From positions 1 to 42,648 of IMG/VR virus record IMGVR_UViG_3300010373_000020: a stretch of 42,648 nt of DNA. The stretch is one strand, 5' to 3'. The translations under genes were made by a program, and so were the position numbers. The first letter of the stretch is position 1. Every line of letters starts with the position of its first letter. The notes below the pieces were generated by a model that did no database searches, had not been told where the DNA came from, and worked only from the letters and a program-made list of their open reading frames with translations. The stretch is from a virus. Below are positions 10,193 to 24,553 of the stretch, piece after piece.

Positions 10193-10396
10193 TCATGACC
10201 CAGCCTCTTTGGCCGAGCCGAACAGCTCCTCGGGCCGCACACGTAACGCCTCGCAGAGCGCGGAGACCGTGCGCCACTCAGGGGACTGATGCGGATTAGT
10301 CTCAAGACCGGAGATGGTCTGCTGCGGGACGCCGGACTTGGCCGCCAGCTCCTGCTGGGTCAGTCGCCGCCGCTTGCGAACATCGCGCAACGCCAT
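10193..10396 (-). CDS. Cro-like XRE-family repressor, 67 aa
   Basis: ATG at 10396 is chosen because a consensus promoter places the -10 box only 7 nt before it. The protein is a single helix-turn-helix: RDVRKRRRLTQQELAAKSGVPQQTISGLE, then SALCEALRVRPEELFG. It has no dimerisation domain beyond the HTH, as in Cro proteins. It heads the leftward early operon and is divergent from the larger repressor gene, which favours Cro over CI. Confidence 0.75.
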   Translation of the reverse strand: MALRDVRKRRRLTQQELAAKSGVPQQTISGLETNPHQSPEWRTVSALCEALRVRPEELFGSAKEAGS

Positions 10397-10403
10397 ACAG
10401 GAG

Positions 10404-10432
10404 AATTTACCGATATAGGGGTGACTTGTCAA
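10404..10432 (-). promoter_or_regulatory. Early leftward promoter (leaderless transcript)
   Basis: On the minus strand TTGACA (10432-10427), a 17-nt spacer and TAAATT (10409-10404). The ATG of the Cro-like gene starts 7 nt after the -10 box, so the mRNA should begin at or next to the start codon and lack a ribosome-binding site, as for lambda cI from PRM. Confidence 0.7.
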
Positions 10433-10442
10433 CAGGTAAATT
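10404..10442. promoter_or_regulatory. Switch operators: inverted repeat AATTTACC / GGTAAATT
   Basis: AATTTACC at 10404-10411 and its exact complement GGTAAATT at 10435-10442 have centres 31 bp apart, three helical turns. The first covers the -10 box of the leftward promoter and the second lies just upstream of its -35 box. They are the best candidates for repressor or Cro binding. Confidence 0.55.
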
Positions 10443-10464
10443 GTCCTCCGCGCGATCTTTTTCT

Positions 10465-10476
10465 CCGTTATAACGG
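10465..10476. promoter_or_regulatory. 12-bp palindrome before the rightward repressor gene
   Basis: CCGTTATAACGG is a perfect palindrome containing a possible -10 element (TATAAC) 13 nt before the ATG at 10489. It may be an operator for autoregulation of the repressor gene. No good -35 box is seen, so the promoter may need activation. Confidence 0.45.
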
Positions 10477-10488
10477 TAAAACGCCATA

Positions 10489-10971
10489 ATGCCTGCACTT
10501 ACCGTTGATATACCCATCCGCAAGTGGCACGATGCGGCCGTGCTGTCCGTTGGAGACTCCGTTCGCAAGCTCAGGAAGGGCCGCAAATGGACGCAGGCCC
10601 AGCTCGCCAAGAAGGCTGCCGTGGCACACACGACAGTTGGGCGCGTCGAAAACGACGGCAATTACACTCGTGAAACGCTGGAGGCAATCGCGAAAGCGCT
10701 AGGCACGAGCGCGGCGGGATTAGAACCGGAAACGACGTCTGACCGCGGCTGGCACGGGGATGGGGTAAAACCCTCACCAAAGGTTGGTGCCAACGATGCC
10801 GGGAATGTTGCTGGCCTTCTCGCCGCGAGAGAGGGCGAACGACTCGACTTATTTGTTATCTTCTCTGGAATCTTCGCCGAACTCTCCGCGGGACAGCCTT
10901 TGGACCAAGTATTGCAGGCTGCGGCGGATCGATCCCGTCGGCGCGAAAGCCATCGCTCTGCTCATCGATGA
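10489..10971 (+). CDS. XRE-family repressor (CI-like), 160 aa
   Basis: ATG at 10489; GTG 10540 is an alternative start. Residues 21-76 are a typical XRE helix-turn-helix (VRKLRKGRKWTQAQLAKKAAVAHTTVGRVEND, then LEAIAKALG). The C-terminal half is Ala-rich and of unknown fold, without the Ala-Gly cleavage site and Ser/Lys pair of LexA-type repressors, so RecA-dependent self-cleavage is not evident. The neighbouring frame over the last 60 codons reads DPVGAKAIALLIDDFYDRTQGR to a stop at 10999, which resembles a natural repressor C-terminus; a frameshift near 10925 is possible. It leads the rightward lysogeny cassette with a lipoprotein and integrase. Confidence 0.72.
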   Translation: MPALTVDIPIRKWHDAAVLSVGDSVRKLRKGRKWTQAQLAKKAAVAHTTVGRVENDGNYTRETLEAIAKALGTSAAGLEPETTSDRGWHGDGVKPSPKVGANDAGNVAGLLAAREGERLDLFVIFSGIFAELSAGQPLDQVLQAAADRSRRRESHRSAHR

Positions 10972-11005: not shown

Positions 11006-11479
11006 ATGCGTATATGGTGTTTTGTGCTCATAGCGCTGTCCGCCGGGTGCGGCAGTTCGCCTACCAACCAACCGACCGGGCCGACAGGCCCAAGCGTGCC
11101 TCAGTATGGTTTCAACTGGACCGGGACCTTCTCCGTGCTCTCGTGCGCCGAAACCGGAGATGGCGCCGGAGTTTGTGCGGCGTCAGGGGCCGTCGGCAGC
11201 ACTGGAATCTACTCACTGACGCTCTCTCAAAGCGGATCGGTCGTGTCTGGCCCGTTCGCGATCGGCAATGAGGCTTTCCCGTCAACCGGCGGCACAATTG
11301 CGTCGGACGGCACGCTGAGCCTAACGGGCACTAATACCGCCAATGGTATAACCGACGTTGTCCGTTGGTCGCTACTGGTATCAAATTCGTCACTGGCCGG
11401 AACCGTGACGATCAGGTCGAGCGAGGCCAACGGGTCTGTTACGCTGACAGCCCAGATCGTCAGTTCCAGCCATCCGTGA
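11006..11479 (+). CDS. Lipoprotein in the lysogeny cassette, 157 aa
   Basis: ATG at 11006. The first 15 residues (MRIWCFVLIALSAGC) form a lipoprotein signal with lipobox LSAGC. A GPTGPS linker follows and then a Ser/Gly/Thr-rich beta domain (GIYSLTLSQSGSVVSGPF, GTIASDGTLSLTGT), similar to lipoproteins with a CGSSPT mature end seen in Acidobacteria-like genomes. It sits between repressor and integrase and would be made in the lysogen, so superinfection exclusion or surface alteration is likely. Its stop overlaps the integrase start (GTGA). Confidence 0.75.
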   Translation: MRIWCFVLIALSAGCGSSPTNQPTGPTGPSVPQYGFNWTGTFSVLSCAETGDGAGVCAASGAVGSTGIYSLTLSQSGSVVSGPFAIGNEAFPSTGGTIASDGTLSLTGTNTANGITDVVRWSLLVSNSSLAGTVTIRSSEANGSVTLTAQIVSSSHP

Positions 11480-12654
11480 CCGATCCGCGCTGGCGCGGGA
11501 TCTACCCGCACGGGGCCGGCTGGCGGGCCGTGGTGTCGCGCGGGCGCAGCCTGCCGCTTCTGACGCGCCACTTCCCGGCGGATACGCCGCTGCGGGCGAT
11601 GCAGGACTGGCGCCGAGACGAGCAGGCCAAGGCGCGCCTGGCGCGCAAGCGTCGCCCGTTATCGGGCACTTTTGCCGTTGAGGCGAAGCGCTACCTCTCG
11701 CTCGTCGTCGGGCTGCCGACGATTGACGACCGGAGACGGGAGGTTGCCCACTGGATCGCCGCGTTCGGCGACCGACGGCGAGAAACCCTCACGGCCGGCG
11801 AGATCCGCGCCCAGCGTGATCGGTGGACGACGGCCCCGCGCTCGGCGACAGACCGGCGCCCGGTGTCGGCCGGCACGATCAACAAGCGGCTCCGGGCGCT
11901 CTCGAACCTCTACGCGGTCCTTGACGGCCCCCGCGCGCCCAATCCGGCCCGCGACGTGGACGAGCTGCGCGAGCCGGTCGCCGAAGCCCGCGCCGTCGAC
12001 TACGCCGTGATTGCGCGGATCATCAAGGCCATGCCGGACCGCGGGCGCCCGCGCAAGGGCCACGCGCCCCCGGACGTGTCGGCCACGAAACTGCGCGTCG
12101 CGTGCTTGGCGTACTGCCAGATCACGCCCAAGCAGCTCAAGGCGCTCACGCCAAGCGATCTCGACCTGGCGGCCGGCCTGGTGCGGCTGCCGGCTCGAGC
12201 CAAGGGCCGCGGCGCCGATGCCGTGTGGGTGCCCCTGCTCCCGAAGGCCGTCGGAGCCTTTCGCGCCTTCGACGCCGCGAACCTCTACGGCCCCTTCTCG
12301 CAGCACTCGCTCAGGAAGTCCTGGTCGCGGGCCGCCCAGAAGGCCGGCGCGCCCGGCGTGCGGCCCTACGACCTGCGCCACACCTACGGCACGCTCGTCT
12401 ACCGCGCCACGCACAGCCGTGAGGCCGTGCAGCAGTTGCTCCAACACGGCTCCTGGGAAACCTCGGCGCGGTACGCGATGGGAGCCGAAGACGATGTCCG
12501 CCTCGGACACGCCCGCGCCGTGGTAAAACATTTTGGTAAAACATCCAAACATAACACGAGGAAACACAAGGGTTTTCGGGGCGAGCCCGCGCGCCAGATC
12601 GGCCAGCCGGCCCGGCGAACATTGAGCAATTCGCGCAGAAAACCCATGAAATAA
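11476..12654 (+). CDS. int: Tyrosine integrase, 392 aa
   Basis: GTG at 11476 overlaps the lipoprotein stop; the frame is open further upstream, but that part lies within the lipoprotein gene. The N-terminal part is a SAM-like arm and core-binding region (TINKRLRALSNLYAVLD). The catalytic domain ends DLRHTYGTLVYR...LLQHGSWETSARYAMG, giving Arg301, His324 and nucleophile Tyr333. Two departures are visible: the first catalytic Arg position reads CQITPKQLKAL (Thr217 where Arg is usual) and the His of HxxR is Tyr298. The gene stops 2 bp before attP. It should catalyse integration into the host tRNA-Arg(CCU) gene. Confidence 0.88.
   Translation: MTDPRWRGIYPHGAGWRAVVSRGRSLPLLTRHFPADTPLRAMQDWRRDEQAKARLARKRRPLSGTFAVEAKRYLSLVVGLPTIDDRRREVAHWIAAFGDRRRETLTAGEIRAQRDRWTTAPRSATDRRPVSAGTINKRLRALSNLYAVLDGPRAPNPARDVDELREPVAEARAVDYAVIARIIKAMPDRGRPRKGHAPPDVSATKLRVACLAYCQITPKQLKALTPSDLDLAAGLVRLPARAKGRGADAVWVPLLPKAVGAFRAFDAANLYGPFSQHSLRKSWSRAAQKAGAPGVRPYDLRHTYGTLVYRATHSREAVQQLLQHGSWETSARYAMGAEDDVRLGHARAVVKHFGKTSKHNTRKHKGFRGEPARQIGQPARRTLSNSRRKPMK
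12521..12543 (+). repeat. Integrase arm-type sites, left pair
   Basis: TGGTAAAACA occurs at 12521-12530 and again at 12534-12543, a 13-bp period. The pair lies in the last part of the integrase gene on the left side of attP and matches a pair on the right side. Confidence 0.6.
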
Positions 12655-12655
12655 G

Positions 12656-12705
12656 TGGTGCGCCCGGCCCGAGTCGAACGGGCGACCCCCGCCTTAGGAG
12701 GGCAG
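12656..12705 (-). other. attP: attP core: 3' half of tRNA-Arg(CCU)
   Basis: Read on the minus strand, the segment gives the 3' half of a tRNA: anticodon stem CTGCC/GGCGG around loop CTCCTAA (anticodon CCU), variable region, T arm GCCCG-TTCGACT-CGGGC, acceptor strand CGGGCGC, discriminator A and CCA. The D arm and 5' acceptor strand are missing. A partial tRNA directly after an integrase gene is the classic attP identity segment; integration should restore a full host tRNA-Arg. Confidence 0.85.
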
Positions 12706-12747
12706 GGGCATCGAACTAACTCTAGTAGTATCAATGTCTTGCAAGGC

Positions 12748-12768
12748 TGGTAAAACCATTGGTAAACG
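12748..12768 (+). repeat. Integrase arm-type sites, right pair
   Basis: TGGTAAAACC at 12748-12757 and TGGTAAACG at 12760-12768 repeat the motif of the left pair with a 12-bp period. Together the four sites flank the core on both sides, as arm-type sites do in lambda-type attP regions. Between here and the gene at 12851 nothing else convincing is seen. Confidence 0.6.
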
Positions 12769-12850
12769 CGCCGGCCGGATTGTTGTCCGGGCCGCGCGAC
12801 CAGATCCGTAGAAATCCGCACAACAACGGGCTTGTACGAATCGCGCGCGG

Positions 12851-14341
12851 ATGCGAAGGTATCGCACCTTCCGCATGCGCAGCGCCTTCGCCCCGATTCC
12901 ACTCGCCGCCCTCGTCCTCGCGGCGTCCTGCTTCACGCCCAACTCGCCCAAGCCGGCGCCGACGGCCGTCGTCACGGTCGACACCTCGCCGGGCGCGACC
13001 GACTGCACGTTCACGCTCACCATCGGGTCGTCGACTCAGACGAGCCCTGCGCACGTCGCGTCCGCGCAGTTCACCGTTCCCGAGTCGCAGGTCAACGCGG
13101 ACTCCGCGACGGCGTCGTGCGCTGGCTTCCTGCCCGCCACGCAGTCCCCGGCGTCGCTCTTGTCGAATCACGTCACGCTCGCGCTGACGCCGGTGGCGCC
13201 GCCCGTGCCGCCCCTTCCGCGCGCGCCGACGCGCGATCAACTGCTCCGCGTGCGCGCCATCTTCCAAGGACTGACGGTCACGACCGCGCAACTGGGCACC
13301 GTGCCGAGCTGGGGGCCTGAAGTCGGCATGCTCACGTCGGCCGCCGACCGGCAGGCGACTTACGCCGCCCACAAGCGGGCGGGCGCGACGCACTTTGTGC
13401 TCGCGGTCACGTGCCACTACACCGAGCCGGGCGTCGCCTTTCCGAACGCCACGGCCTGTAGCAACGACTGGTCGAACGACCCGGCGACCCTGGCGACTCG
13501 CGTTGCCGAGGTGGTGCGCGCCGGCCTTTTCCCCGTCGTGATGCAGGGCGGCGACGAGCTGCCCTGGTCGACGGTGCGCGCGCAGATGCCGGCGTGGTAC
13601 GCCGCGCTGAAGACGTCGCCAGACGGAGATCTGACGCCGTATATCGTCTGGTGTCTCGGCTTCGACAGCGTCGTGCCGATCCTGAACGCGAACGACACGG
13701 CCGTGCAGGATTTCATCGATACGACGCTGGCGACCCGCGCGGTCATCGGCAACGGCGCGCAGGTCATCGAATATCCGGCCGGCTGGGCATTTTGGGGTCC
13801 GACCGACGCGCGGTTCAACCTCGCCGGGCCTGGCAGCTACACGTCCACGGCTGGGCAGGCGCTCGATGGCGTACTGCAAGAGTTCGCGAACGACTCGCCG
13901 GGCAACGATCCGACGCCGACGGTTACCGGCTCGACCTACGACCCCGAGCACGGCTACACGCCGACGTGGTCGGCCGATGCGTCGCCGTGGATGCAGGTGT
14001 GGCAGATCGCCGCGCGCGGGCCGTCCTACACCGCGCCAGCAGACGAGCCTTTCAACGTCCGCGTCACGGCCGCAGGCGGTGGCCCGCAGGACGGCCAGAT
14101 CGTCTCGGTCAGCGCCGACCGACAGCACGTCACGTCGTATGCAGCCGGCGTCTCGACGCCGCGCGGACGCTTCTACTTCGTCGGCTTCGAGTTCGCGACC
14201 TATCAGCATGTTCATGGGCAGACGACGCGCGCCCGTGTAGTCAAGGCCGGTCAGTACATCTCCGGCGTCGGCTACGACGCCGTGTGCATGCCGGCCGCGT
14301 CGAGCGGTCGGGCGACTGCTCGCTGGGAGGTGCGCCGATGA
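12851..14341 (+). CDS. Large lipoprotein of unknown function, 496 aa
   Basis: ATG 12851, or ATG 12872 which would place MRSAFAPIPLAALVLAASC as a cleaner signal. The lipobox is LAASC, so the protein should be lipid-anchored. Residues 60-90 are a Pro-rich linker (PPVPPLPRAPTRDQL). The main domain has alternating helices and strands, with THFVLAVTCHYTEPG, GLFPVVMQGGDELPWS, IEYPAGWAFWGPTDARF and HGYTPTWSADASPWMQVWQ; this looks like a TIM-barrel glycoside-hydrolase-type fold, though no active site can be stated. First gene of the rightward late operon. It may degrade or bind surface sugars or change the host surface. Confidence 0.65.
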   Translation: MRRYRTFRMRSAFAPIPLAALVLAASCFTPNSPKPAPTAVVTVDTSPGATDCTFTLTIGSSTQTSPAHVASAQFTVPESQVNADSATASCAGFLPATQSPASLLSNHVTLALTPVAPPVPPLPRAPTRDQLLRVRAIFQGLTVTTAQLGTVPSWGPEVGMLTSAADRQATYAAHKRAGATHFVLAVTCHYTEPGVAFPNATACSNDWSNDPATLATRVAEVVRAGLFPVVMQGGDELPWSTVRAQMPAWYAALKTSPDGDLTPYIVWCLGFDSVVPILNANDTAVQDFIDTTLATRAVIGNGAQVIEYPAGWAFWGPTDARFNLAGPGSYTSTAGQALDGVLQEFANDSPGNDPTPTVTGSTYDPEHGYTPTWSADASPWMQVWQIAARGPSYTAPADEPFNVRVTAAGGGPQDGQIVSVSADRQHVTSYAAGVSTPRGRFYFVGFEFATYQHVHGQTTRARVVKAGQYISGVGYDAVCMPAASSGRATARWEVRR

Positions 14342-14643
14342 ACCTGCAAGAGGAACACGCCGCCGCGAACCCTGCCGCCTATCGGCGCACGGCCGAGGCG
14401 GTCCTGATGAACGCGCTAGAGGATCTGAACGCGCCACTCAGCGACGACCTGCCCGTGATCTACCGGGCGCTCGCGGCCGGGGCGTTCCTGTTCGAGCGCA
14501 CGGATCGGATCGTGCCGTTCTGGTTCGGCCTCGCCGGCGTCGACTTGCGCGCCTTTCGGGAGTCCCGACACGCCGCGATCCTGCGTGCGCGCTTCGCCGC
14601 GTGGCGCCAGCTCGACGCGCGGCGTCACGAGGAGGTCGCATGA
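14338..14643 (+). CDS. Hypothetical helical protein, 101 aa
   Basis: ATG at 14338 overlaps the lipoprotein stop (ATGA). The protein has no signal or membrane segment and looks all-helical (TAEAVLMNALEDL, ARFAAWRQLDARRHEEVA). Family not recognised. Its coupling to both neighbours supports expression. Confidence 0.65.
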   Translation: MNLQEEHAAANPAAYRRTAEAVLMNALEDLNAPLSDDLPVIYRALAAGAFLFERTDRIVPFWFGLAGVDLRAFRESRHAAILRARFAAWRQLDARRHEEVA

Positions 14644-14837
14644 GCCCCCGACACCACCACCAGAAACCCGACTGCCTCATCGGCAATGCGCACACCGAAG
14701 CCGCGAATCCGACCTCGTCGTGGTGGACCGGTATCGACCGGGCCGACTTCTCGCGCGAAGTGGCCGCGCAGACCCCGCGCATGCGGCGGTCGAAGTTCGG
14801 CAATCTCGACTCGCCGACGTACGGCGACGAGGACTAG
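14640..14837 (+). CDS. Hypothetical protein, 65 aa
   Basis: ATG at 14640 overlaps the preceding TGA. It is hydrophilic with a His run (MSPRHHHQKPDC), a central SSWWTGIDRADFSRE segment and an acidic end (YGDED). No family recognised. Confidence 0.6.
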   Translation: MSPRHHHQKPDCLIGNAHTEAANPTSSWWTGIDRADFSREVAAQTPRMRRSKFGNLDSPTYGDED

Positions 14838-14859
14838 ACCGCTTTCGAAGGAGACTCCC

Positions 14860-15072
14860 ATGAGCCCGCAAGTAAAGACCGGACTGATCGGCCTCGGCAC
14901 GTTCCTCGCCGCGAGCGCACTCAACTACGTGATCGGGCATCTGACGAGCTTCGGCGTGCCGGCGGCGTGGCTGCCGGCGATCTCGGCGCTCCTGCCGCTC
15001 ATCACGCACTACCTGCCGACGCCGCAGTCGATGGCCTCGTCCGCGAACACCGTCAGCACGTCGGGCCGGTAG
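14860..15072 (+). CDS. Small two-span membrane protein, holin-like, 70 aa
   Basis: ATG at 14860 with GAAGGAGA upstream. Two hydrophobic segments, TGLIGLGTFLAASALNYVIG and AAWLPAISALLPLITHYLP, are joined by a short turn, then a polar Ser-rich tail. Size and topology suit a class II holin, or the small membrane proteins common near phage holins. A second candidate lies at 15477. Neither is beside the lysis enzyme at 24.5 kb. Confidence 0.6.
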   Translation: MSPQVKTGLIGLGTFLAASALNYVIGHLTSFGVPAAWLPAISALLPLITHYLPTPQSMASSANTVSTSGR

Positions 15073-15073
15073 C

Positions 15074-15466
15074 ATGGCCGCAAAGCTGATCGACCCGCAG
15101 GGGTTGTGGCAGCAGGACGACGACGCACTTGATCGCGACGTCGACTTGCAGTGGTTCAGCGAGATCAAGACCGGCGTGTCGGTCTACGGCCGCACGTCGG
15201 GCACGGCCTCGAACCACATCCACCTGTATCACCACGACACCGGGGCCGATTCCGGCCTGAACCTCGATCCGCGCACGGGCATCGTGAGCCGTGACGGGAA
15301 CCCGATCGGCGACGTCCTCGCGACGGCCGTGGTCGGCCTGGAGGGCATCGCCGGCAGCCTGATCGGGAGCGGCGTCGCGGCGGTCAACGCCGCCAAGCGG
15401 ATCGCCTCTCCAAGCGGCGAAGCCGTCGACCTGACGGGGCTGGTCTTCGCCCCGCCGCACCCGTAA
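15074..15466 (+). CDS. Hypothetical protein, 130 aa
   Basis: ATG at 15074, one base after the previous stop. The first 85 residues are polar with short strand-like pieces (GVSVYGRTSGTASNHIHLYHH); then a small-residue helix (ATAVVGLEGIAGSLIGSGVAAVNAAKRI) that could be membrane-associated. No family recognised. Confidence 0.6.
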   Translation: MAAKLIDPQGLWQQDDDALDRDVDLQWFSEIKTGVSVYGRTSGTASNHIHLYHHDTGADSGLNLDPRTGIVSRDGNPIGDVLATAVVGLEGIAGSLIGSGVAAVNAAKRIASPSGEAVDLTGLVFAPPHP

Positions 15467-15476
15467 GGAGACTCGG

Positions 15477-15680
15477 ATGTCTACCGGCGTGTCCTTCGTC
15501 TTGATCGCCACCGTCCTGCTGTGGGGCGGCTACGAACTCTTCGCGCTCGCGACCCATCGGCAAACGATCTCGCGCGGCATTCAGGACTCGCTGCGGACGT
15601 CGATCGGCGCCCGCTATGCGTGCCTCGTCTGCATCGTGATCGGCGTGTTGCTGGGGCATTTCTTCTTCCCCCTGTGCTGA
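15477..15680 (+). CDS. Small two-span membrane protein, holin-like, 67 aa
   Basis: ATG at 15477 with AAGGAGA 5-11 nt upstream. Membrane segments VSFVLIATVLLWGGYELFAL and YACLVCIVIGVLLGHFFF flank a basic loop (THRQTISRGIQDSLRTSIGAR), as in small holins. This or the protein at 14860 may be the pore-forming holin; the coiled-coil membrane protein at 24908 is a third candidate. Confidence 0.6.
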   Translation: MSTGVSFVLIATVLLWGGYELFALATHRQTISRGIQDSLRTSIGARYACLVCIVIGVLLGHFFFPLC

Positions 15681-15684
15681 CCCC

Positions 15685-15900
15685 ATGAACGCTGCTGAAC
15701 TCCACGCGCTGCTGTCGAAGATTCCGAAGGCCGATCGGCGCGAAATCGAGGTCATGGTCGCGCGGGCGAAAGACGCTGGCCCCCCGATCGCCTCGCCGGC
15801 TGAGGACTCGTCCGGGTGGAACTATCCCGTCCGGCGCGCGGAGCGGCAGAACGCGGTTGTGCTGTCGCTGCGCTGGGTCGCGGAGAACGATCCGTGCTGA
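15685..15900 (+). CDS. Hypothetical protein, 71 aa
   Basis: ATG at 15685, four bases after the previous stop. N-terminal helix (AAELHALLSKIPKADRREIEVMVARAKDAG), then a short segment ending in EDSSGWNYPVRRAERQNAVVLSLRWVAENDPC. Its stop lies inside the start of the sigma-factor gene, so the two are coupled. No family recognised. Confidence 0.6.
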   Translation: MNAAELHALLSKIPKADRREIEVMVARAKDAGPPIASPAEDSSGWNYPVRRAERQNAVVLSLRWVAENDPC

Positions 15901-16541
15901 CCACGGGCCAGAAAGTCACCTCGACCGACCCGGCCGACCCGGCCGTCATCGAACTACTGCGGCGTCTCTCGATCAAGGCCGCGCACGGCTCGCGCACGGC
16001 GTCGCGGCTGCCGCCCGGCTTGGACGCCGACGACTTGAAGCAGATCGCCCTGATCGCTGGCGTCGATGCGCTCGGCCGTTGGCGCGCCGATGGCGGGGCC
16101 TCGGTCGGCACGTTCGTCTTCCACCGCATGCGCGGCGCCGTCTTGGACGTGATGCGGTCGCAGGCGTGGCCGCGCTCGATGCGGAGCGTGATGCGGGGCG
16201 ACGTCGATGCTAGCCCGCACATGGCGCGGCGCGTCTGCGGCCTGCACGCGATGCAGGCGAAGCCCGAGGCGCATCTGCCGGCAGGCTTCGGCCTGACGAC
16301 GTTCGACGCGCCCGACGCGGCCCTGCTGCGGCGCGCCGATGGCGTGCGGGTGCGCGCGGCCGTCCTCAGGTTGCCGCCGCGGCTGCGGCGCATCGTCACC
16401 CTGTACTTCTGGCGCGGCCTGACGATGCGCCAGATCGGCGAACAAATCGGCGTGAACCAGTCGCGCGTGAGTCAGTTGTGCCACGCGGCGCTCGACCGGC
16501 TGCGGCGGACCCTGGCGACGCCGGACCAACTGGCGGCATGA
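15894..16541 (+). CDS. Sigma-70-family RNA polymerase sigma factor, 215 aa
   Basis: GTG at 15894 overlaps the preceding gene by 7 nt. Region 2: LDADDLKQIALIAGVDALGRW, then VGTFVFHRMRGAVLDVMRSQAW, the FliA/SigB-type core-binding and -10 recognition pattern. Region 4: LPPRLRRIVTLYFWRGLTMRQIGEQIGVNQSRVSQLCHAALDRL, a full helix-turn-helix. It should bind host core polymerase and redirect it to phage promoters. It ends by overlapping the terminase start (ATGA), exactly where a small terminase gene is usually found; a region-4 helix-turn-helix protein in that place could also serve DNA recognition in packaging, but the complete region 2 favours a true sigma factor. Confidence 0.82.
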   Translation: MLTTGQKVTSTDPADPAVIELLRRLSIKAAHGSRTASRLPPGLDADDLKQIALIAGVDALGRWRADGGASVGTFVFHRMRGAVLDVMRSQAWPRSMRSVMRGDVDASPHMARRVCGLHAMQAKPEAHLPAGFGLTTFDAPDAALLRRADGVRVRAAVLRLPPRLRRIVTLYFWRGLTMRQIGEQIGVNQSRVSQLCHAALDRLRRTLATPDQLAA

Positions 16542-18004
16542 GCGGCCACCCGCCCGACTCGAAGGTCTGGACGTGGGGCGCCGGGGCGTGGGCGGCCCTG
16601 AACTCGACCGCGCCGTACGTCGACCTCGAAGGCGGCATCCGCGCCCAGAAGACGACGGTCTTGTGCGCGAAGGTCTTGGCGCTCTGCTTGAAGCATCCGG
16701 GCATCAAGATCCTGCTCTGCCGCTGGACCGAGGAATCGCTTGATACCCAACTGAAGCCGAAGTGGCGCGAGCATTGCGCCGAGAACGGCGTCACGCTCGC
16801 GTGGAACGCCGAGGAGCACTACGACCGGCTGGAGAACGGGTCAATCGTCTACCTCCGCGGCCTGAAGCCGTCCGAGGGCGCGGCGCGCTACTCGAAGCTG
16901 CGCGGGCTCACGCTGGCCTTTATCGGGGCCGATCAGGCCGAAGAATTCCCGCCCGACTTCTGGCCAGAGTTCGTGGGTCGTATCTCACAGCCAGGCTACC
17001 CTCATCAGATCTGGCTCACGCCGCAGCCGGTCAACCCCGGCCACTGGATCGACGAGAAGTTCCCCGAAGACAACCGCGACCCGGCGTACTGCTACGTCCG
17101 CACGAACGTCTACGACAACCGCGCGGCGGTCGGCGACGAGTACATTGCGGGCCTCGAAAAGGAATACCCGCTCGGCTCAGCGCAGCGCCGCACGCTGCTC
17201 GAAGGGCGTCGCGGGCTGGCGACCGTCGGCCGTCCGGTCTATCAAGGACTCTTCGACCGACGACGTCACGTCCGAAACATCACGGCGAACAAGGATCTGC
17301 CGCTCTACGAAGGCTGGGACTACGGCCACGGGCACCCGTGCGTCGTGTGGGCGCAGTTCACGCCGATGGGCCGGTATGCGCTGCTCGGCGCGGTCATGGG
17401 CGAACACATGTCGATCGACGTCTTCGCGCCGGTCGCCCTGTACTACCGCGAGCTGTGGTTCGGCAAGCAGATCGACGTGCAGTCGACCGGCGACCCGGCC
17501 GGGCTGGCCGAGAGCAGCCAGGGGCTCCCCGGCAGCGTTGACGAGATCCTGGCCGGCTACGGCGTGGCGATCACGGGCTGCACGGGCGGCAACGCGCCCG
17601 AAGCGCGCGACCGAGCGATCAAGGCGACCGGGGCCTACATGACCCGCGCCGCGCTGGACGGTGGCCCGGCGTTCGCGGTGTCCGAGCGCGGCATGGTCGT
17701 CAAGGCCGGGGCGGACCCGCGCCCGGTCCCGCTGCTGCCCGACGGCTTCGAGGCCGGCTACGTGTGGGACGAGCGCCAGTTCTACGGGCCGCGCGTGAAC
17801 ATCCGAAGACCCAAGAAGGACGGCTTTTACGACCACAGCCAGAACGGCAACGAGTACATCGCGTTGTCGTTCGGGCCGGGGATGCCGAGCCAAGACGACT
17901 TGGAAGCGCACGAGCGCCGCGAGCTCAGGCGGGCGCAGCGCGATCCCGACGGCGTGGGCGTCGCGGTCGGGCGGTCGATGGTGGGCCGGATACGGCGGGG
18001 CTGA
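16538..18004 (+). CDS. terL: Terminase large subunit, 488 aa
   Basis: ATG at 16538 overlaps the sigma-factor stop. ATPase domain: Walker A GGIRAQKTT (residues 32-40, an atypical P-loop), Walker B LAFIGADQAEEF (Asp132, Glu135, Glu136). Nuclease domain: YEGWDYG (Asp261), QSTGDPAG (Asp319) and KKDGFYDHSQNG (Asp432) supply the metal-binding acids of the RNase H-like fold. Length is normal for the family. It cuts and translocates DNA into the prohead. Directly followed by the portal gene. Confidence 0.9.
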   Translation: MSGHPPDSKVWTWGAGAWAALNSTAPYVDLEGGIRAQKTTVLCAKVLALCLKHPGIKILLCRWTEESLDTQLKPKWREHCAENGVTLAWNAEEHYDRLENGSIVYLRGLKPSEGAARYSKLRGLTLAFIGADQAEEFPPDFWPEFVGRISQPGYPHQIWLTPQPVNPGHWIDEKFPEDNRDPAYCYVRTNVYDNRAAVGDEYIAGLEKEYPLGSAQRRTLLEGRRGLATVGRPVYQGLFDRRRHVRNITANKDLPLYEGWDYGHGHPCVVWAQFTPMGRYALLGAVMGEHMSIDVFAPVALYYRELWFGKQIDVQSTGDPAGLAESSQGLPGSVDEILAGYGVAITGCTGGNAPEARDRAIKATGAYMTRAALDGGPAFAVSERGMVVKAGADPRPVPLLPDGFEAGYVWDERQFYGPRVNIRRPKKDGFYDHSQNGNEYIALSFGPGMPSQDDLEAHERRELRRAQRDPDGVGVAVGRSMVGRIRRG

Positions 18005-18007
18005 ACG

Positions 18008-20179
18008 ATGAAGAAATACAACCTGCACAGGGACGCCAAGAAGCCGTACCGCATCGCCCTCGATGACGAGGACCGCAAGACGTTCTTCGAGGAGCTGATC
18101 CTTGAACTGCAATCCGCCATGTCCGCGCGCAATGAGTACGTGCGCGAAGGCGGCCTCATCGATCAGTGGTGGGCGATGTACGAGCAGACGCCCGACTATG
18201 AGCGCATCCGCGACGGCCGGAAAGACTTTGCCTCGTGGATGCCAACGGTGTACGTCGACTCGATGGCCGACCGGGTCAATCAGGTCGTCTTCGGCGTCGA
18301 GCCGATCTGCATGGTCGAGGGCTGGCCGTCGTCGGCGCAGGGGCCGAGTTCGAGCGCCGATGCGGCGGCGAAGGTCGAAGCCTTCCACGAGTGGCAGGCC
18401 GACAACGAGCGGCTGCGGCTGGTCGCCGACAAGCTCTTCCGGGCCGGGCTCGTGGAGGGCAACGGCATTCTCGAAGTGTCCGAGCGTCGGCGCGTGGTGA
18501 AGACGAAAAAGACCATGCGCGCTGCGGTCGCGCTGAACGAGCACGGGGCCGTGCACCTGGACGAGCAGATGCGGCCGATCCCGCGCCGCGATGCGCAGGG
18601 CCAACTCGTGCCGCACGATCCGCACGATCCCGTGTTCAACGGCGCCGAGGCTCCGTCCGTCGATGTGTCGTACGAGGAAACCGCGACGCCCGGCGACGGC
18701 CCAGAGCACACGGTCATTTCAGCGAAAGACTTCCTGTACCTGCCCGTGCACGCGAAGAACATGGGGCAGGTGTACGGCTACGCGCGCCGGTTCTTCCTGA
18801 CGGTCGCCGACTGCAAGCAGAAGGAAGCGCAGGGCGTCTACGATGGCGTGGACGCGCTTGGCGTGTCGCAGGAGCGCCTGACAAACGAAGAGGATCGCCG
18901 CCTCGGCCAGACCGCGCAGGACGCCTCGACCGACGACCGGGCGATGAAAGAACTGTGGCAGGTGTCGCTCTACGTCGATCTCGACGGCGACGACGTGCCC
19001 GAGTGGGTCATCGCGACCGTCAGCGTGCAGCACAACGTCGGCATCCAGTTGCAGTTTGACGACCTGCCGCAGTGCCGTTACCTGTCGTTCACGCCGTTTC
19101 CGCGTTCGACGTCCGTGTGGGGCATGTCGCTCATCGCGAAGATGTGGACGACGATCGATGAGCACACGTGCTGGCGCAATCTGTCAGCCGAAGCGGCCGA
19201 GAAGCGCGTCCATGCGCCACTGCTGCGGCAGCGGAACTCGCCGTGGAAACCCGAGGTCCAGCCGTTCGGCACGGAAGCGGTGATCGATGTCGCGTCGATC
19301 ACGGGCGACGTCGCGCAGTTGCAGATGTTCGACGCGCCAGAGGGCGTCTTCCTGAAGACCCGCGAGACCGAGGAAGCCGGCGAACGGCAGAGCGGCCTGA
19401 ATGACGTCGCGATGCTCGGCGGGTCGTCCTCGGCCGGCGGCAGCCGCGGCGGCCACGCGACGGCGACCGAAGTGCAGACCGACGCGCATGCGTCCTACGT
19501 GCGCGTGCAGGCCGTTGTGGACCGGGCGCAGGAGTTCGTCGCGGACTGGTACTACCTGCGGCATCAGCTGTGGAAACGCGCGTTGGCGGGCGGTGTGGCG
19601 GCGAAGATGCCGCCGGGCACGGCCGCGCTGCGCGGGCTCCAGTCGCGCGGGATCTTCGCGGACGCGAATGGCCCGCTCGACTTCACGGCGCAGGATCTCG
19701 AAGGCACCTGGCGGTTCAAGCCGCGTGGGTCGGTCGAGACGGCCGACGTCTACCGGCTGCGCGACGACCTGATCGGCTTCATGGAGAACGTCCTGCCGGC
19801 GATCATGAAGTTGTCGCCGTCCTTCGCGCAGTTCGTGCAGGGCAACCCCGCGTTCATCAAAGCGATCTTTCAGGACGCGATCCGGCTGTTCCGCATGGAA
19901 GCGCTGCAAACGCAGATGAACCAACTGATGCAGCAGTTTCAGGCGCAGCAGACGCAGCAGGCCGCGCTCGCGCCGCCGGCTGGCCCGGCGGGGCTGCCGC
20001 CCGGCGCCGGACCGGCCGGTGCCCCGCCAGTCGCCCAGCCCGGCGTGGGCGGCCCGATGATCCCTGGCGCGCCTGGCGGGCCGGGCGGTCTGGGCGTCCA
20101 GAACTTCGCGCCAGTCGTCGCGCCGACGATTGCCGTGGGAGGGGCCGGTGAGCCAGTACCGACAGCCGCGGCCGGATGA
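18008..20179 (+). CDS. Portal protein, 723 aa
   Basis: ATG at 18008. The long alpha/beta protein with GGLIDQWWAMYEQ, VYVDSMADRVNQVVFG, KDFLYLPVHAKNMGQVYGYARRF and FPRSTSVWGMSLIAKMWTTIDEHTCWRNL follows the P22/podovirus-type portal pattern. The C-terminal 100 residues are a helical QTQMNQLMQQFQAQQTQQ segment followed by a Gly/Pro/Ala-rich tail, comparable to the barrel and tail of large portals. Position after the terminase agrees. The end of the gene overlaps the GTG of the next gene. Confidence 0.85.
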   Translation: MKKYNLHRDAKKPYRIALDDEDRKTFFEELILELQSAMSARNEYVREGGLIDQWWAMYEQTPDYERIRDGRKDFASWMPTVYVDSMADRVNQVVFGVEPICMVEGWPSSAQGPSSSADAAAKVEAFHEWQADNERLRLVADKLFRAGLVEGNGILEVSERRRVVKTKKTMRAAVALNEHGAVHLDEQMRPIPRRDAQGQLVPHDPHDPVFNGAEAPSVDVSYEETATPGDGPEHTVISAKDFLYLPVHAKNMGQVYGYARRFFLTVADCKQKEAQGVYDGVDALGVSQERLTNEEDRRLGQTAQDASTDDRAMKELWQVSLYVDLDGDDVPEWVIATVSVQHNVGIQLQFDDLPQCRYLSFTPFPRSTSVWGMSLIAKMWTTIDEHTCWRNLSAEAAEKRVHAPLLRQRNSPWKPEVQPFGTEAVIDVASITGDVAQLQMFDAPEGVFLKTRETEEAGERQSGLNDVAMLGGSSSAGGSRGGHATATEVQTDAHASYVRVQAVVDRAQEFVADWYYLRHQLWKRALAGGVAAKMPPGTAALRGLQSRGIFADANGPLDFTAQDLEGTWRFKPRGSVETADVYRLRDDLIGFMENVLPAIMKLSPSFAQFVQGNPAFIKAIFQDAIRLFRMEALQTQMNQLMQQFQAQQTQQAALAPPAGPAGLPPGAGPAGAPPVAQPGVGGPMIPGAPGGPGGLGVQNFAPVVAPTIAVGGAGEPVPTAAAG

Positions 20180-20393
20180 TCGCCGCTACGACTTGGCCGA
20201 TCCGCAACTACGGAAGTGCCAGCGCAAGATCCGCTTTCGCAGCCGCGGTGCGGCGCGCGATGCGATGCGGCGCGTGCAGCGCGAACGGCCGCGACCGGGC
20301 GACGACACGCTGAACCCCTATTACTGCTCGAACTGCGGAGGGTACCACTTTGGACACAAGACCACACGACGAGACGACGACCCAGGCGACTGA
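20148..20393 (+). CDS. Small zinc-finger protein, 81 aa
   Basis: GTG at 20148 has GGGAGGGG 5-11 nt upstream and lies within the end of the portal gene. A basic middle (KCQRKIRFRSRGAARDAMRRVQRERPRP) is followed by YYCSNCGGYHFGHKTT, a CxxC...HxxxH zinc finger. Small phage proteins with the YxCxxCGGxHxG motif are frequent in virion gene clusters and of unknown function. Confidence 0.65.
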   Translation: MSQYRQPRPDDRRYDLADPQLRKCQRKIRFRSRGAARDAMRRVQRERPRPGDDTLNPYYCSNCGGYHFGHKTTRRDDDPGD

Positions 20394-20727
20394 CGAAGCG
20401 AAGAACGAGATCGCGGCCCTGACCGAGTTGGCGCAGTCGCCCGGCTGGGCGCTCGTGACGAAAGCCTTTTCCTCGCTCGCGTCGCCCGCGCACGTCCTCG
20501 ATTCCGCCCACGGCCTGCTGAAAGATGCGTCGGCCTTGGGGTCGCAGAAGCTCGAGATCGGGCTGCGCCAGATCCTCTCAGAGGGGTCTGCGGTCGCTGC
20601 CGTGCTGACGTTCCCGCAGATGCGGATCGCGCAATTGCAGGGGCCGAAGACTGGCCCGCAGGAGCCGCGCGGGATGCCGCTCCCCACGCCCGAGTCGCGC
20701 GTGCGTCACTTCGTGAGGCGCGGATGA
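20350..20727 (+). CDS. Hypothetical head-module protein, 125 aa
   Basis: TTG at 20350 is preceded by GGAGGG with an 8-9 nt spacer, inside the end of the zinc-finger gene; this deserves note as a rare start. The protein is helical with a Ser/Ala-rich centre (KAFSSLASPAHVLDSAHGLLKDASALG) and a Pro-rich end. No family recognised. Confidence 0.6.
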   Translation: MDTRPHDETTTQATDEAKNEIAALTELAQSPGWALVTKAFSSLASPAHVLDSAHGLLKDASALGSQKLEIGLRQILSEGSAVAAVLTFPQMRIAQLQGPKTGPQEPRGMPLPTPESRVRHFVRRG

Positions 20728-21023
20728 CGGCGCTGCGCATGCTCGGCTCGCGCGTGCTGCTCAAGCCGATTGACCCGGCGCCGCGTTCGGACCTGATCGC
20801 GCTGACGGACAAGTCGTGGACGTTCGCGGCCGAGGTGGTCAATCTCGGTCGGCCGCGGTGTGCGTCCTGCGGCCACCCTCTCACGGTCGACATTCAGGTC
20901 GGAGACCGCGTGTACGTGCCCGCGTCGAAGGGGCACGAAATCACCATGAACGGCGAGACGTTCTGGGTGCTGGACTTCGAAGACATCGGCGGTCTTTTCG
21001 TGGACGAGGTGACCCATGCCTGA
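20724..21023 (+). CDS. GroES-like co-chaperonin, 99 aa
   Basis: ATG at 20724 overlaps the preceding stop. GSRVLLKPIDP begins the fold; PRSDLIALTD occupies the place of the mobile loop, with a hydrophobic Ile-Ala-Leu like the IVL tripeptide that binds GroEL; AAEVVNLGRP, DIQVGDRVYVP, GHEITMNGETFWVL and DIGGLFVDE complete the Cpn10 beta-barrel in order. The roof-loop region carries an inserted CASCG pair. Length equals that of GroES (about 97). It lies between portal and scaffold genes, as an assembly factor would, like T4 gp31 that adapts GroEL to fold the capsid protein. Confidence 0.8.
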   Translation: MTALRMLGSRVLLKPIDPAPRSDLIALTDKSWTFAAEVVNLGRPRCASCGHPLTVDIQVGDRVYVPASKGHEITMNGETFWVLDFEDIGGLFVDEVTHA

Positions 21024-21999
21024 CGACGCGGCCCTGATCGGACTGGAAACGGACGGCGGCGAGGCGGTCGCGCTGCCGGCGGAACTCGCCAACCCAGAAG
21101 CGCCCGGCGCGGCAACTGAACCCGCAACTCCGGCCGAGCCCTCCGCGCCCACGCCCCCGCAGCCGGCCGACCCAGCCGCGGCGGCCACCGCGTGGGAACG
21201 GGAACGTGCCGGCCTGCTGCGCGCGCTGTCGGAGGAGCGCGACGACAAGAAGACTCTGCGCGATCAGGTGAACCGCCTGAGCGGCATGGTCGAGGCCATC
21301 GCCAAGCCGACCGTAACCGCTCCAGTCGTCGAACCCGGCCCCACCGCGGCGGACCTCGAAGACACGGCGCGGTCGCTCGGCCTCTACAAGGCGGACGGGT
21401 CGGGCCAGCTCGACCTCGTCGCCGCCAAGAACGTCCTGGCGCGCGAAGCGCAGCGGACGCGGGCGGCCGTCGAGCAAGTCGTCGAGGAGCGCGTCAAGCC
21501 GCTCCAGACACACGTCGAGACGCAGCAGGCGCAGGCGGCCGTCAGTTCGATCTTCGAGGCGACGCGCGGCAAGGGCATCGAGGACCGCTTCACGCAGGCG
21601 GCGATCCAGAACTTGACAGGTGGCGACCCGCGGACGCTGATGCAGCCAGGCGTGCAAGTGCTCGTGACGCTCACGGCGGCGGGCATGAAGCAGATGATCG
21701 CTGGCGGGGCTCCCGCCACAGCGGCCACGGCTGCGGCGGCGGCCTCGGCAGCGGCAGCGGTCGTCAACGCTGGTGCCCCAGCGGCCCCGGCCGCTCCCGC
21801 CGCCCCCCCGGCGTTCGTGGCCGACACCGGGGCGCGCCCGGCGACCGCCCCGGCGCCCGAACTGTCGGCGCTCGAAAAGAAGACGATGCGGTCGCACGGC
21901 ATGAAGGTCGAGGAGTTCCGCGATTTCACGAAGGCCCTCGACAAGGCGAACGAGTCGGGCCGCGGCATTCCCGCTAGCGGTATCGCACTGGAGGACTGA
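21016..21999 (+). CDS. Scaffold-like protein, 327 aa
   Basis: ATG at 21016 overlaps the GroES-like gene by 8 nt. The N-terminal 60 residues are Ala/Pro/Glu-rich and disordered; a coiled coil follows (WERERAGLLRALSEERDDKKTLRDQVNRLSGMVEAI), then helices, a low-complexity Ala/Pro run (about residues 233-275) and a small charged C-terminal domain (ALEKKTMRSHGMKVEEFRDFTKALDKAN). Composition, coiled coil, basic end and place after the portal are those of a capsid scaffold. The capsid gene it would serve is far away on the other strand. Confidence 0.65.
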   Translation: MPDDAALIGLETDGGEAVALPAELANPEAPGAATEPATPAEPSAPTPPQPADPAAAATAWERERAGLLRALSEERDDKKTLRDQVNRLSGMVEAIAKPTVTAPVVEPGPTAADLEDTARSLGLYKADGSGQLDLVAAKNVLAREAQRTRAAVEQVVEERVKPLQTHVETQQAQAAVSSIFEATRGKGIEDRFTQAAIQNLTGGDPRTLMQPGVQVLVTLTAAGMKQMIAGGAPATAATAAAAASAAAAVVNAGAPAAPAAPAAPPAFVADTGARPATAPAPELSALEKKTMRSHGMKVEEFRDFTKALDKANESGRGIPASGIALED

Positions 22000-22003
22000 A
22001 CCT

Positions 22004-22537
22004 ATGGCGAAGGACAAGCAGGCCGTCAAGATTCCCGCCGACTTCGCGGTGGCCGAGCGGCGATTGCAGCACGGCGATCTGGCCGAACTGTCGCGCGGGT
22101 CAAACATCGAACTCGTCGGGCAGCCGTGCCCGATGGTGCTCTACTGGGCGCCGATCAACGGCCAGCCGTCCCCGTGGCACATGATCAACGTGCTCGGCTG
22201 GCAGTACGTCACACCGGCCGACCTCGGCGGCAAGCCGTCCGACCTCGGCCTGGACGAACAGGACGGCCGGATCGTCAAGGGCGGCCGCGACGATCAGGAA
22301 GTCCTGTTCAAGATGCCGAAGCATCTGCGCGAGCGGATCGCGTTCAAGAAGACCGAGGACTTCACACGCAAGCTCACGGACACCTCGAAGTCCAAGAGCG
22401 TCATCCAGAAGGGGCTGTCGGACGCGGGCGACGACCGCTCGGCCGAACTGCTCGGCAAGATGGAAGGGACACTCGAAGGCGGGGCGGCGCACCGGCTGGC
22501 TCGCGCGGTGGAATCCGAACCGGAAGAAGTCAAGTAG
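22004..22537 (+). CDS. Hypothetical head-module protein, 177 aa
   Basis: ATG at 22004, four bases after the previous stop. Mixed alpha/beta: FAVAERRLQHGDLAELSR, CPMVLYWAPINGQPSPWHMINVLGWQYVTPADLGG, a DQEVLFKMPKHLRERIAFKK segment and an acidic C-terminus. The YVTPxDL and VLFKMPKHL pieces occur in conserved head-region proteins of some podoviruses with no known role. Confidence 0.6.
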   Translation: MAKDKQAVKIPADFAVAERRLQHGDLAELSRGSNIELVGQPCPMVLYWAPINGQPSPWHMINVLGWQYVTPADLGGKPSDLGLDEQDGRIVKGGRDDQEVLFKMPKHLRERIAFKKTEDFTRKLTDTSKSKSVIQKGLSDAGDDRSAELLGKMEGTLEGGAAHRLARAVESEPEEVK

Positions 22538-22546
22538 GGCTCGGCC

Positions 22547-23779
22547 ATGGTCACAAAGCCCAACGCCGACAACGTCCTGCGCGCGGCCGTGCGCGCCGTG
22601 GAGAAGGCCGACGGACACCGCGGGCGCGCGGCTGTGGCGCTCGGCATCCCGGTCGGGACGCTCAAGGATCGCCTCCGGCAGGCCGTCACCAGCGGTCTCA
22701 TTCAGGCGTTCCCGCGGACGTTCTTGGCGACCCGGTACGCCGCCGAAGGCGAACGCCCGGAGCAGACGATCGATGACGACCTCGCGCGGCAGAAGTCCCG
22801 CGTCGGCCAGAAGGACGTCGAGCGCAAGTACCAGGAGTCGCTGGCGACCATTGACGCGCAGCGCCGGGCGCTCGAAGCCTCCTACGCGCTTGCGCGGCCG
22901 GTCGAGACGGTCGTCATCGAGCCGAAGCACGGCGGCAGCACGTCGGAAGCGACGGCCATCGCGCTCGCGGGCGACTGGCACATCGAGGAGGAAGTCGGCA
23001 AGGAAGTCGGCGGCCTGAACGTCTACAACCTCGACATCGCGCAAGCCTGCGCGGCGCAGTTCTTTCGCGCCGTCGTCAGCCTGACGCGCATGTCGCAGCA
23101 GGACGTCAAGATCGAGCACCTGGTCCTCGGCCTGCTCGGCGACTTCATTTCCGGCGACATTCACGACGAGCTGCGCGAGCGGTGCCAGCTCCGGCCGACC
23201 GAAGCGATCGTGATGGCGCAGCGGATGCTCGTGTCGGGCATCGAGTTCATCCTGAACCACTCGAAGGTCAGCATCCTTGCCGTGTGCAAGTCGGGGAACC
23301 ACGCGAGGACGACGAAGAAGGTCTTTGTCTCGAACGAGCAAGGGCACTCGCTCGAATACCTGATGTACCAGCACTTGGCCGCGCACTTCCGGTCCGAGAA
23401 GCGGGTGCAGTTCCAGATCGACGAGTCGTACCACTCGTACGTCCAGATTTACCGCGAGACCGCGGCCTTCCACCACGGGCACCATGTCAACTATCAGGGC
23501 GGCGTCGGCGGCCTGACGATTCCAATGAACAAGGCGATCGACCGGTGGAACGAAGCGCGACCGGCCACGGTGTACTTCAACGGCCACCATCACACGTCGC
23601 TCGACGGGGAGCGGTTCGTGTCCAACGGCTCGATGATTGGGCACTCGGCCTTCTCGGTCAGCATCAAGGCCCCGTACGGCGAGCCCCGGCAGTGGTTCAA
23701 CCTGATCGACAAGCGCCGCGGCCGCACGGGCCGATGGCCCATTCTCTTCGACAACCGAAAGGCGACTCGTGCGGCGTAG
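22547..23779 (+). CDS. Calcineurin-like metallophosphoesterase with N-terminal HTH, 410 aa
   Basis: ATG at 22547. Residues 10-60 form a helix-turn-helix (AVRAVEKADGHRGRAAVALGIPVGTLKDRL); residues 75-120 a helix with charge repeats; then the metallophosphoesterase motifs AGDWHIEEE (Asp143, His145), LLGDFISGDIHDE (Gly198, Asp199), SGNHAR (Asn251, His252), AFHHGHH and FNGHHHT (347-349). All five metal-binding blocks are present, so it should hydrolyse phosphodiesters or monoesters, possibly on DNA given the HTH. Such enzymes occur near portal genes in some phages; role in packaging or end-processing is inference. Confidence 0.78.
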   Translation: MVTKPNADNVLRAAVRAVEKADGHRGRAAVALGIPVGTLKDRLRQAVTSGLIQAFPRTFLATRYAAEGERPEQTIDDDLARQKSRVGQKDVERKYQESLATIDAQRRALEASYALARPVETVVIEPKHGGSTSEATAIALAGDWHIEEEVGKEVGGLNVYNLDIAQACAAQFFRAVVSLTRMSQQDVKIEHLVLGLLGDFISGDIHDELRERCQLRPTEAIVMAQRMLVSGIEFILNHSKVSILAVCKSGNHARTTKKVFVSNEQGHSLEYLMYQHLAAHFRSEKRVQFQIDESYHSYVQIYRETAAFHHGHHVNYQGGVGGLTIPMNKAIDRWNEARPATVYFNGHHHTSLDGERFVSNGSMIGHSAFSVSIKAPYGEPRQWFNLIDKRRGRTGRWPILFDNRKATRAA

Positions 23780-24041
23780 CGGGTACGGCACACAACGTAT
23801 CGAAGAAGCCGCTCGGCGGCTCGTGGACGGCCCGCGCTCGGCGGCCTACGGTGCCCCGCCCGACTCCATGCGGCGGATCGCACTCGCGTGGTCGGCTATT
23901 CTCGACCGGCCCGTCACCGGCAAAGAGGTCGCGCTGTGCATGGCGGCGCTGAAGCTCTGCCGGGAAGCCCACAAGCCGAAACGAGACAACCGCGTCGACC
24001 TCGTCGGCTTCGCCCTCATCGCGGACATGGTCAGCGAGTGA
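23769..24041 (+). CDS. DUF6378-like protein, 90 aa
   Basis: GTG at 23769 overlaps the phosphoesterase stop by 11 nt. The middle reads RRIALAWSAILDRPVTGKEVALCMAALKLCREAHKPKRDNRVDLVGFALIADMV, the characteristic pattern of DUF6378 phage proteins (W..ilg..vt...Va..m..lKl.R......D...D..GYa). The family is widespread in phages, often near nucleotide-metabolism genes; activity unknown. Confidence 0.7.
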   Translation: MRRSGYGTQRIEEAARRLVDGPRSAAYGAPPDSMRRIALAWSAILDRPVTGKEVALCMAALKLCREAHKPKRDNRVDLVGFALIADMVSE

Positions 24042-24249: not shown

Positions 24250-24553
24250 GGTGTGGCGGCTCGGCCACGCCGCGCTCTGCCCGCACGCCAACACGATGTT
24301 CTTTCAGAACACCGCGCCAGATGCCGTGTGGCTGGAAGGCGACCTTGAAATGATGCGGCGGTGTGACGGCGTGCTGCTGGTCGAAGGCTGGGAGCAGTCG
24401 CAGGGCGCCTCAGCGGAGGCCGAGGAAGCCGTCACGCTCGGCATTCCGATCTTCTCGAATCTCGAACGCCTGAAGACGTGGCTCGCGCTCTGGGGCGACG
24501 CTCAGGCCGCGATGACGGGCGCCCGGAGCGAGGCCACGACGCGCAGCCGGTAG
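24140..24553 (+). CDS. DUF4406-like nucleoside 2-deoxyribosyltransferase-fold protein, 137 aa
   Basis: ATG at 24140. RVIYIAGPFRAPNP, then NIMRAMDLAREVWRLGHAALCPH, DLEMMRRCDGVLLVEGWEQSQGASAEAEEAVTLGIPIF matches DUF4406/YtoQ-type proteins, related to nucleoside 2-deoxyribosyltransferases; the Gly-Pro, Asp-Gly-Val and Ser-x-Gly-Ala-x-x-E motifs are present. It may act on modified nucleosides or nucleotide pools. Last gene of the rightward late operon; its 3' end overlaps the oppositely directed lysis gene by 52 bp. Confidence 0.75.
   Translation: MRVIYIAGPFRAPNPDGTNNAWRTQENIMRAMDLAREVWRLGHAALCPHANTMFFQNTAPDAVWLEGDLEMMRRCDGVLLVEGWEQSQGASAEAEEAVTLGIPIFSNLERLKTWLALWGDAQAAMTGARSEATTRSR

Follow-up and report, generated by a model that had tools for sequence, protein, structure and literature searches.

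What does a sigma factor gene do directly in front of terL in a temperate phage? The question is raised by an open reading frame at 15894-16541 (plus strand) in the viral record IMGVR_UViG_3300010373_000020, whose 42,648 nucleotides are the whole stretch of DNA analysed here (the window). A first-pass annotation had read its product as a sigma-70-type factor with intact regions 2 and 4, coupled to terL, placed where the small terminase is expected and potentially able to switch transcription to late genes. Because the first and last 123 bases of the record are identical (1-123, plus strand, and 42526-42648), we treat it as complete and closing to a circle of 42,525 bp. The features that bear on the question are collected in Table 1.

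Table 1. Features of the window around the sigma gene and the two late operons
Feature	Position	Strand	Basis or remark
Divergent Cro/C1-type HTH genes, presumed immunity region	10193..10971	10193-10396 minus, 10489-10971 plus	
Tyrosine integrase	11476..12654	+	
Gap upstream of plus late operon, tested for promoters	12655..12874	.	
Presumed attP core, 3' half of tRNA-Arg(CCT) gene	12656..12709	.	directly after integrase stop
Plus-strand late operon with sigma, terL and portal	12875..24041	+	gene calls; comparison with relatives
Four small ORFs (14860, 15074, 15477, 15685), same run, upstream of sigma	14860..15900	+	gene calls
Sigma-70-family factor	15894..16541	+	215 aa, GTG start; Pfam, NCBIfam and PDB sequence matches
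Sigma-2 domain	15918..16166	+	model residues 9-91; Pfam r2 residues 38-92
Short linker, residues 93-145, at the position of the FliA sigma-3 domain	16170..16328	+	alignments; pLDDT <50 at residues 117-136
Sigma-4 domain, residues 146-208, helix-turn-helix SRVSQL	16329..16517	+	Pfam; 4nqw alignment
terL	16538..18004	+	Pfam Terminase_3, phrog_2; ATGA overlap with sigma stop
Portal	18008..20179	+	Pfam SU10_portal
Minus-strand late operon, capsid and tail, inverted relative to relatives	24502..40573	-	gene calls; comparison with relatives
Major capsid protein	38522..39451	-	
Gene preceding capsid gene, also in relatives	39464..39970	-	matches in relatives' loci
terS-like small basic protein heading capsid operon	40292..40573	-	pre-terL profile; phmmer
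Gap upstream of minus late operon, tested for promoters	40574..40919	.	

Family matches far beyond chance identify the protein as a genuine member of the sigma-70 family that has both region 2 and region 4. In Pfam it reached 53.6 bits for Sigma70_r4 (cut-off 24.1), 34 bits for Sigma70_r4_2 (cut-off 25.7) and 33 bits for Sigma70_r2 (cut-off 24), and the NCBIfam model of the sigma70 superfamily, TIGR02937, gave 75.8 bits against a cut-off of 42.9, so that the first-pass annotation of an intact sigma-70-type factor stands. FliA sigma-28 entries were the top PDB matches, with E of about 1.5e-16 and both regions aligned. The top-scoring NCBIfam family was likewise FliA_WhiG (TIGR02479), at 90.7 bits, yet below its cut-off of 189.6, and no subfamily or equivalog model exceeded its own cut-off among the best 25 of 39 matches. 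The sigma-3 domain is absent: in alignments, about 33 residues of the host FliA proteins have no counterpart in the phage sigma. Because of this loss the protein has a two-domain, ECF-like architecture, composed of sigma-2 and sigma-4.

Further information was obtained by predicting the structure. AlphaFold without an alignment gave a mean pLDDT of 48, and only region 4 was confident. When it was supplied with an alignment of 32 sequences (the phage sigma and 31 sigma proteins from fetched viral loci), the mean pLDDT rose to 80.8, and the model showed two confident domains joined by a loose linker. The check proposed in the first-pass annotation, which a prediction lacking sigma regions would have refuted, thus returned the sigma-2 and sigma-4 folds, to be read with the caution that the input alignment is itself composed of sigma proteins. 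The best Foldseek matches of the model in the PDB include sigma factors, FliA and WhiG among them. With VIA-align 2, residues 9-91 fall on sigma-2 of 8b3z (Z 10.8, rmsd 2.0 over 74) and residues 146-208 on sigma-4 of 4nqw (Z 10.1, rmsd 1.5 over 63). Each domain superposes on solved sigma domains with rmsd 1.5-2.3, and the large whole-chain rmsd reflects the free placement of one domain relative to the other in the model.

These results bear on the idea that the protein is a DNA-binding late activator, no longer a full sigma factor, similar to the Ltr, ArpU and RinA proteins encoded before terS in phages of Gram-positive bacteria. The likeness is one of genome place, which is the same as that of ArpU/Ltr in Streptococcus phages according to the accessible part of PMC5601072, and region 4 of the phage sigma also matches phrog_36, a 'transcriptional regulator', weakly (E 1.4e-5). 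However, region 2 is intact and above its Pfam cut-off, and the sigma-2 fold is predicted with confidence, so we consider such an activator unlikely. Ltr, ArpU and RinA do have their genes directly before the terminase genes (accessible parts of PMC5601072 and PMC13123087), whereas the window phage has a two-region sigma of FliA type and not an Ltr-type activator.

Where did this sigma come from? We sampled 396 genomes, all from a single phylum, that of the Acidobacteria MAG described below, and 41 of them contained a sigma match at E <=1e-10 (best 2.4e-18), with up to 51% identity in region 4. In phmmer comparisons, 16 distinct genome places of FliA type scored 94-109 bits and a further protein, of G101, 60-61 bits; the best PDB FliA entry scored 63.9 bits and the best sigma from a viral contig 72.4 bits. 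Regions 2 and 4 of the FliA/WhiG (sigma-28) proteins of Acidobacteriota align throughout with the phage sigma, and the SRVSQL of the region 4 helix-turn-helix is identical in all aligned rows, phage and Acidobacteriota. The phage protein differs from bacterial FliA/WhiG in that it lacks sigma-3, falls under the TIGR02479 cut-off and is encoded by a phage, beside terL. By these comparisons, the FliA proteins (sigma-28) of Acidobacteriota appear to be its closest relatives among the genomes sampled. In a tree, the phage sigma is placed on a long branch (5.24) as sister of 16 rows from Acidobacteriota (support 86/76, not starred); the host rows of this tree all come from one phylum and were chosen for their similarity to the phage protein. 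An Acidobacteriota origin is likely, rather than firm, because one phylum was sampled; the tree supports it weakly and is a lead only.

The host of the phage is probably an acidobacterium, because a 41-nt stretch of the tRNA-Arg(CCT) 3' half beside the integrase has an exact match, the only one in the genome collection, in a contig of an 'uncultured Acidobacteria bacterium' MAG. ARAGORN finds tRNA-Arg(CCT) at the matching place of that contig. The same order of integrase, tRNA-like 3' half (identified by eye) and late genes is found in L003, the closest TerL relative by identity (51%). The word GGTAAA is over-represented in the window (14 against 2.44 expected). We rejected it as a promoter box, since its pairs at 12522/12535 and 12749/12761 (window 12522-12545 and 12749-12768) flank the tRNA-like core and are therefore read as integrase arm-type sites. 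HPnc0260, the sole result of an Rfam scan of 12500-12900, was below the gathering score and was also rejected. Elsewhere in the genome, TACCGTTGRTATA occurs at 10500-10512 and 41750-41762, in two early promoter regions, and is likely a repressor operator. The protein encoded at 7390-8829 (minus strand) joins a 5'-3' exonuclease (Pfam) to a stretch matching RecT-like annealing proteins (PHROGs) and on these matches is an exonuclease-annealase fusion, with a homologue in L078.

The sigma might act mainly on host genes, mimicking the host FliA and redirecting transcription of motility or envelope genes instead of phage late genes. The nearest cellular relatives found are indeed Acidobacteriota sigmas of FliA type, the SRVSQL of region 4 is shared with them in every aligned row, and the phage has no conspicuous sigma-28-like promoter. 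But the gene belongs to a packaging operon and overlaps terL, where its timing would be late, and sigma-3, which is part of FliA promoter recognition, is gone. We see a role of this kind as improbable.

The connection with terL can be read directly from the DNA. The sigma stop overlaps the terL ATG at 16538 (ATGA), which confirms the coupling proposed earlier, and the sigma start overlaps the preceding ORF (15685-15900) by 7 nt. The four small ORFs upstream gave no family above cut-off in Pfam and PHROGs scans (PHROGs only for 14860-15072). At the beginning of the same operon, directly after attP, a 488-aa protein (12875-14341, plus strand) has a lipoprotein-like signal, as judged by eye, and no Pfam or PHROG match; it may be a lysogeny gene.

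Relatives often have, in front of terL, a gene for a small basic protein whose start is of the GRPKG type. We classed pre-terL proteins by a home-made motif, which picked out 29 of the 74 loci with upstream DNA and left 45 as 'other' (6 of the 80 loci have no upstream DNA); the motif misses some look-alikes, such as those of L003, L004 and L050, and two of the 29 proteins classed by it (L043 and L044) resemble shadow frames. A profile of the 29 proteins does not match the phage sigma, and its only match in the window is the ORF at 40295-40627 (minus strand), with E 3.1e-18. A phmmer search with the 93-aa protein encoded there, at 40292-40573, is independent of the motif and gave matches in 15 loci, the best in L081 (E 2e-15). 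Thirteen of the 15, near-copies included, end at most about 30 nt from the terL start (coordinates by eye), and the remaining two, in L075 and L088, are some hundred bases farther from it, on the upstream side. The sole Pfam match of this protein, DUF5681, is below cut-off.

From this homology we think that the product of 40292-40573 is probably the small terminase. On comparison with the relatives, the sigma occupies the usual pre-terL slot and the usual pre-terL protein is encoded at the head of the capsid operon. The phrase 'in the place of the small terminase' thus holds for the position before terL and is not supported for function, because a homologue of the usual protein is present elsewhere. 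That the sigma replaces the small terminase subunit as the partner of TerL, as its slot might suggest, is very hard to reconcile with a genome that keeps this homologue and with a protein that is a sigma by family and by predicted fold; we give this reading almost no weight.

The late genes as a whole are also arranged differently from those of relatives. Among the TerL-search loci, 14 had a capsid match, in all 14 cases on the terL strand, while 38 of the 64 new capsid-search loci also had terL or portal, which shared the capsid strand in all 38 and lay opposite in 0 (some contigs are common to both sets). The gene preceding the capsid gene was matched in 14 TerL-search loci and in 51 of the 64 capsid-search loci. 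In the window, terL and portal are on the plus strand (to 24041), and the capsid and tail genes are on the minus strand (40573 to 24502). By this comparison, the single late operon of the phage group is split here into two convergent operons. As relatives have all late genes on one strand, an inversion of about 16 kb is implied in the window. The border between both operons lies at 24042-24502. Within the minus late operon, a tRNA-Met gene (40138-40215, minus strand) is located between the terS-like and capsid genes, and the last gene, 24502-24906 (minus strand), encodes a Tlde1-domain protein (Pfam, above cut-off) that is possibly a lysis enzyme.

The sigma is rare in this phage group, as had been supposed: phmmer matched it in 0 of 96 TerL-search loci (E 1) and in 0 of 64 capsid-search loci (E 1e-3). 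Family searches of whole records covered 50 of the 80 TerL relatives. Region 2 was matched in three of these 50, once above cut-off (record of L086), and region 4 in two, never above cut-off, and no near relative among them had a sigma above the cut-offs in both regions. L086, a distant relative, has a frame with sigma region 2 only, at about 7200-7517, some 2.5 kb upstream of terL. The sigma could be a passenger, a host gene picked up near the attachment site and dispensable for the phage cycle. This would agree with the missing matches in sampled relatives and with the variability of the region before terL. Nevertheless, both domains lie in an uninterrupted frame that overlaps the adjacent genes at either end, and the long branch implies that the sigma did not arrive just recently. 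We consider a mere passenger to be quite improbable.

Close relatives of the sigma were found neither in annotated phages (E 1e-5) nor among 15 pattern candidates in viral contigs, none of which was confirmed; one plasmid FliA turned up. None of 14 candidates was confirmed with the portal as query, and the same was true for 133 pattern candidates for TerL relatives in bacterial genomes. No TerL relative appeared at E 1e-10 in the 396 genomes of the MAG's phylum, a search without positive control and thus uninformative.

More distant FliA-like sigmas exist in other phages. Scanning viral contigs with a FliA motif yielded 54 stretches, 50 of which were examined for terL and sigma. terL was recognized by phrog_2 in 27 of the 50 records and sigma region 2 in 49; 26 records had both, one terL record being dropped for want of a region-2 match. 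In 7 of the 26 (6 distinct) the sigma precedes terL on the same strand at a distance of no more than 5 kb, against a random mean of 1.93 (P 0.0014), in contigs that are not a random sample, with a phrog_2 profile that misses some terL and a 5-kb limit of our choice. In L138, for example, the order is sigma, terS-like gene, terL and portal (terS and portal named by eye). These IMG/VR sigmas (L098-L151) have the same region-2 motif as the phage sigma, several of them lack sigma-3 or have it shortened, and some precede terL in environmental phages that are unrelated to this one. The 31 aligned ones are 22-31% identical to the phage sigma, and the fetched stretches contain no TerL related to that of the window (phmmer, E 1e-3).

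If the sigma serves the late operons, a shared promoter before them would be expected, as the first-pass annotation had pointed out. We did not find one. Sigma-28-like sites are at chance level (the best scores 13.3, and 20 Markov shuffles reached maxima of 11.8-13.8), and the leaders of 12875 and 40573 share neither an ungapped block nor two-block words above shuffles. Some other leader pairs gave p values of 0.0-0.04, roughly what testing so many pairs would yield. The lack of a shared promoter carries little weight, because the promoters of phage 7-11 are likewise unpredictable and were found by experiment, according to the accessible part of PMC8948821. Regarding host-type sigma-70-like promoters, the region from 10 to 25.5 kb has one site, facing the repressor gene, where 0.9 are expected, and the region from 34 to 42.6 kb has four where 0.6 are expected, three of them around small early genes. 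The fourth, a 9-of-12 site at 40851-40824 (minus strand), before the minus late operon, could drive this operon with the host sigma.

Taking all this together, we favour, with some confidence, a phage sigma of FliA descent, likely derived from Acidobacteriota and reduced to sigma-2 and sigma-4, which directs the host core polymerase to the late operons. A late-gene factor is plausible in view of the family and structure matches, the position at the packaging genes with overlap of terL, the FliA-like sigmas found above random upstream of terL in unrelated environmental phages, and the chance level of host-type promoters over 10-25.5 kb. We count against it the lack of a shared promoter, the sigma-70-like site before the minus operon, and the fact that relatives with the same structural genes manage without a sigma. 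We infer core binding, promoter choice, timing and target operons as follows. The sigma would first be made by plus-strand transcription from a host-type or early promoter and would bind host core RNA polymerase. The resulting holoenzyme would be directed to a few phage promoters of the late operons, and the sigma would then sustain its own operon together with terL.

The window phage resembles the phiEco32-like podoviruses (phi32_gp36, 7-11 gp47) in having a phage sigma, in being podovirus-like and in its SU10-type portal, SU10 being a phage that we take to be phiEco32-like. phiEco32 and 7-11 are not known to have an integrase, and neither is among the 28 tblastn records obtained for the phage sigma at E up to 10. 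Podoviruses nevertheless offer a precedent: 7-11 gp47 and phiEco32 gp36 are proven late-gene factors, which combine with the host core into holoenzymes and drive late promoters; coupling to terL is not described for them in the part of PMC8948821 available.

A bolder proposal links the sigma to the rearrangement. A captured host FliA, stripped of sigma-3, would have entered the slot that the terS-like gene left free as the late operon was split and half of it inverted; the sigma would couple the two convergent late operons, and excision would gate the late switch. The immunity region, integrase, attP and sigma-terL order are on one strand, and thus read-through making the first sigma would occur only in the excised circle, so that excision itself would gate the switch. 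Without sigma-3, recognition of the -10 element and control by anti-sigma factors may be altered, and the protein is perhaps freed from a FlgM-type host anti-sigma. We offer this proposal as a speculation that is rather unlikely to hold as a whole.

Late sigma factors (PMC8948821) and late regulators encoded before terminase genes (PMC5601072, PMC13123087) are already known from the accessible parts of these reports. What is unusual here is the shortened, two-domain form of the sigma and the rearranged genome around it; a literature search, with most subscription journals outside its coverage, found no report of a FliA-like sigma coupled to terL. Phage late-gene sigma factors have been proven in few phages. 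The window adds a minimal two-domain sigma of clear cellular descent in a temperate phage with a split late operon, whose sampled relatives lack such a factor. If the function that we propose is true, this case would reveal a route by which a phage gains a new transcription switch and would identify the part of FliA that can be dispensed with. The sigma also provides a handle on gene control in phages of Acidobacteriota.
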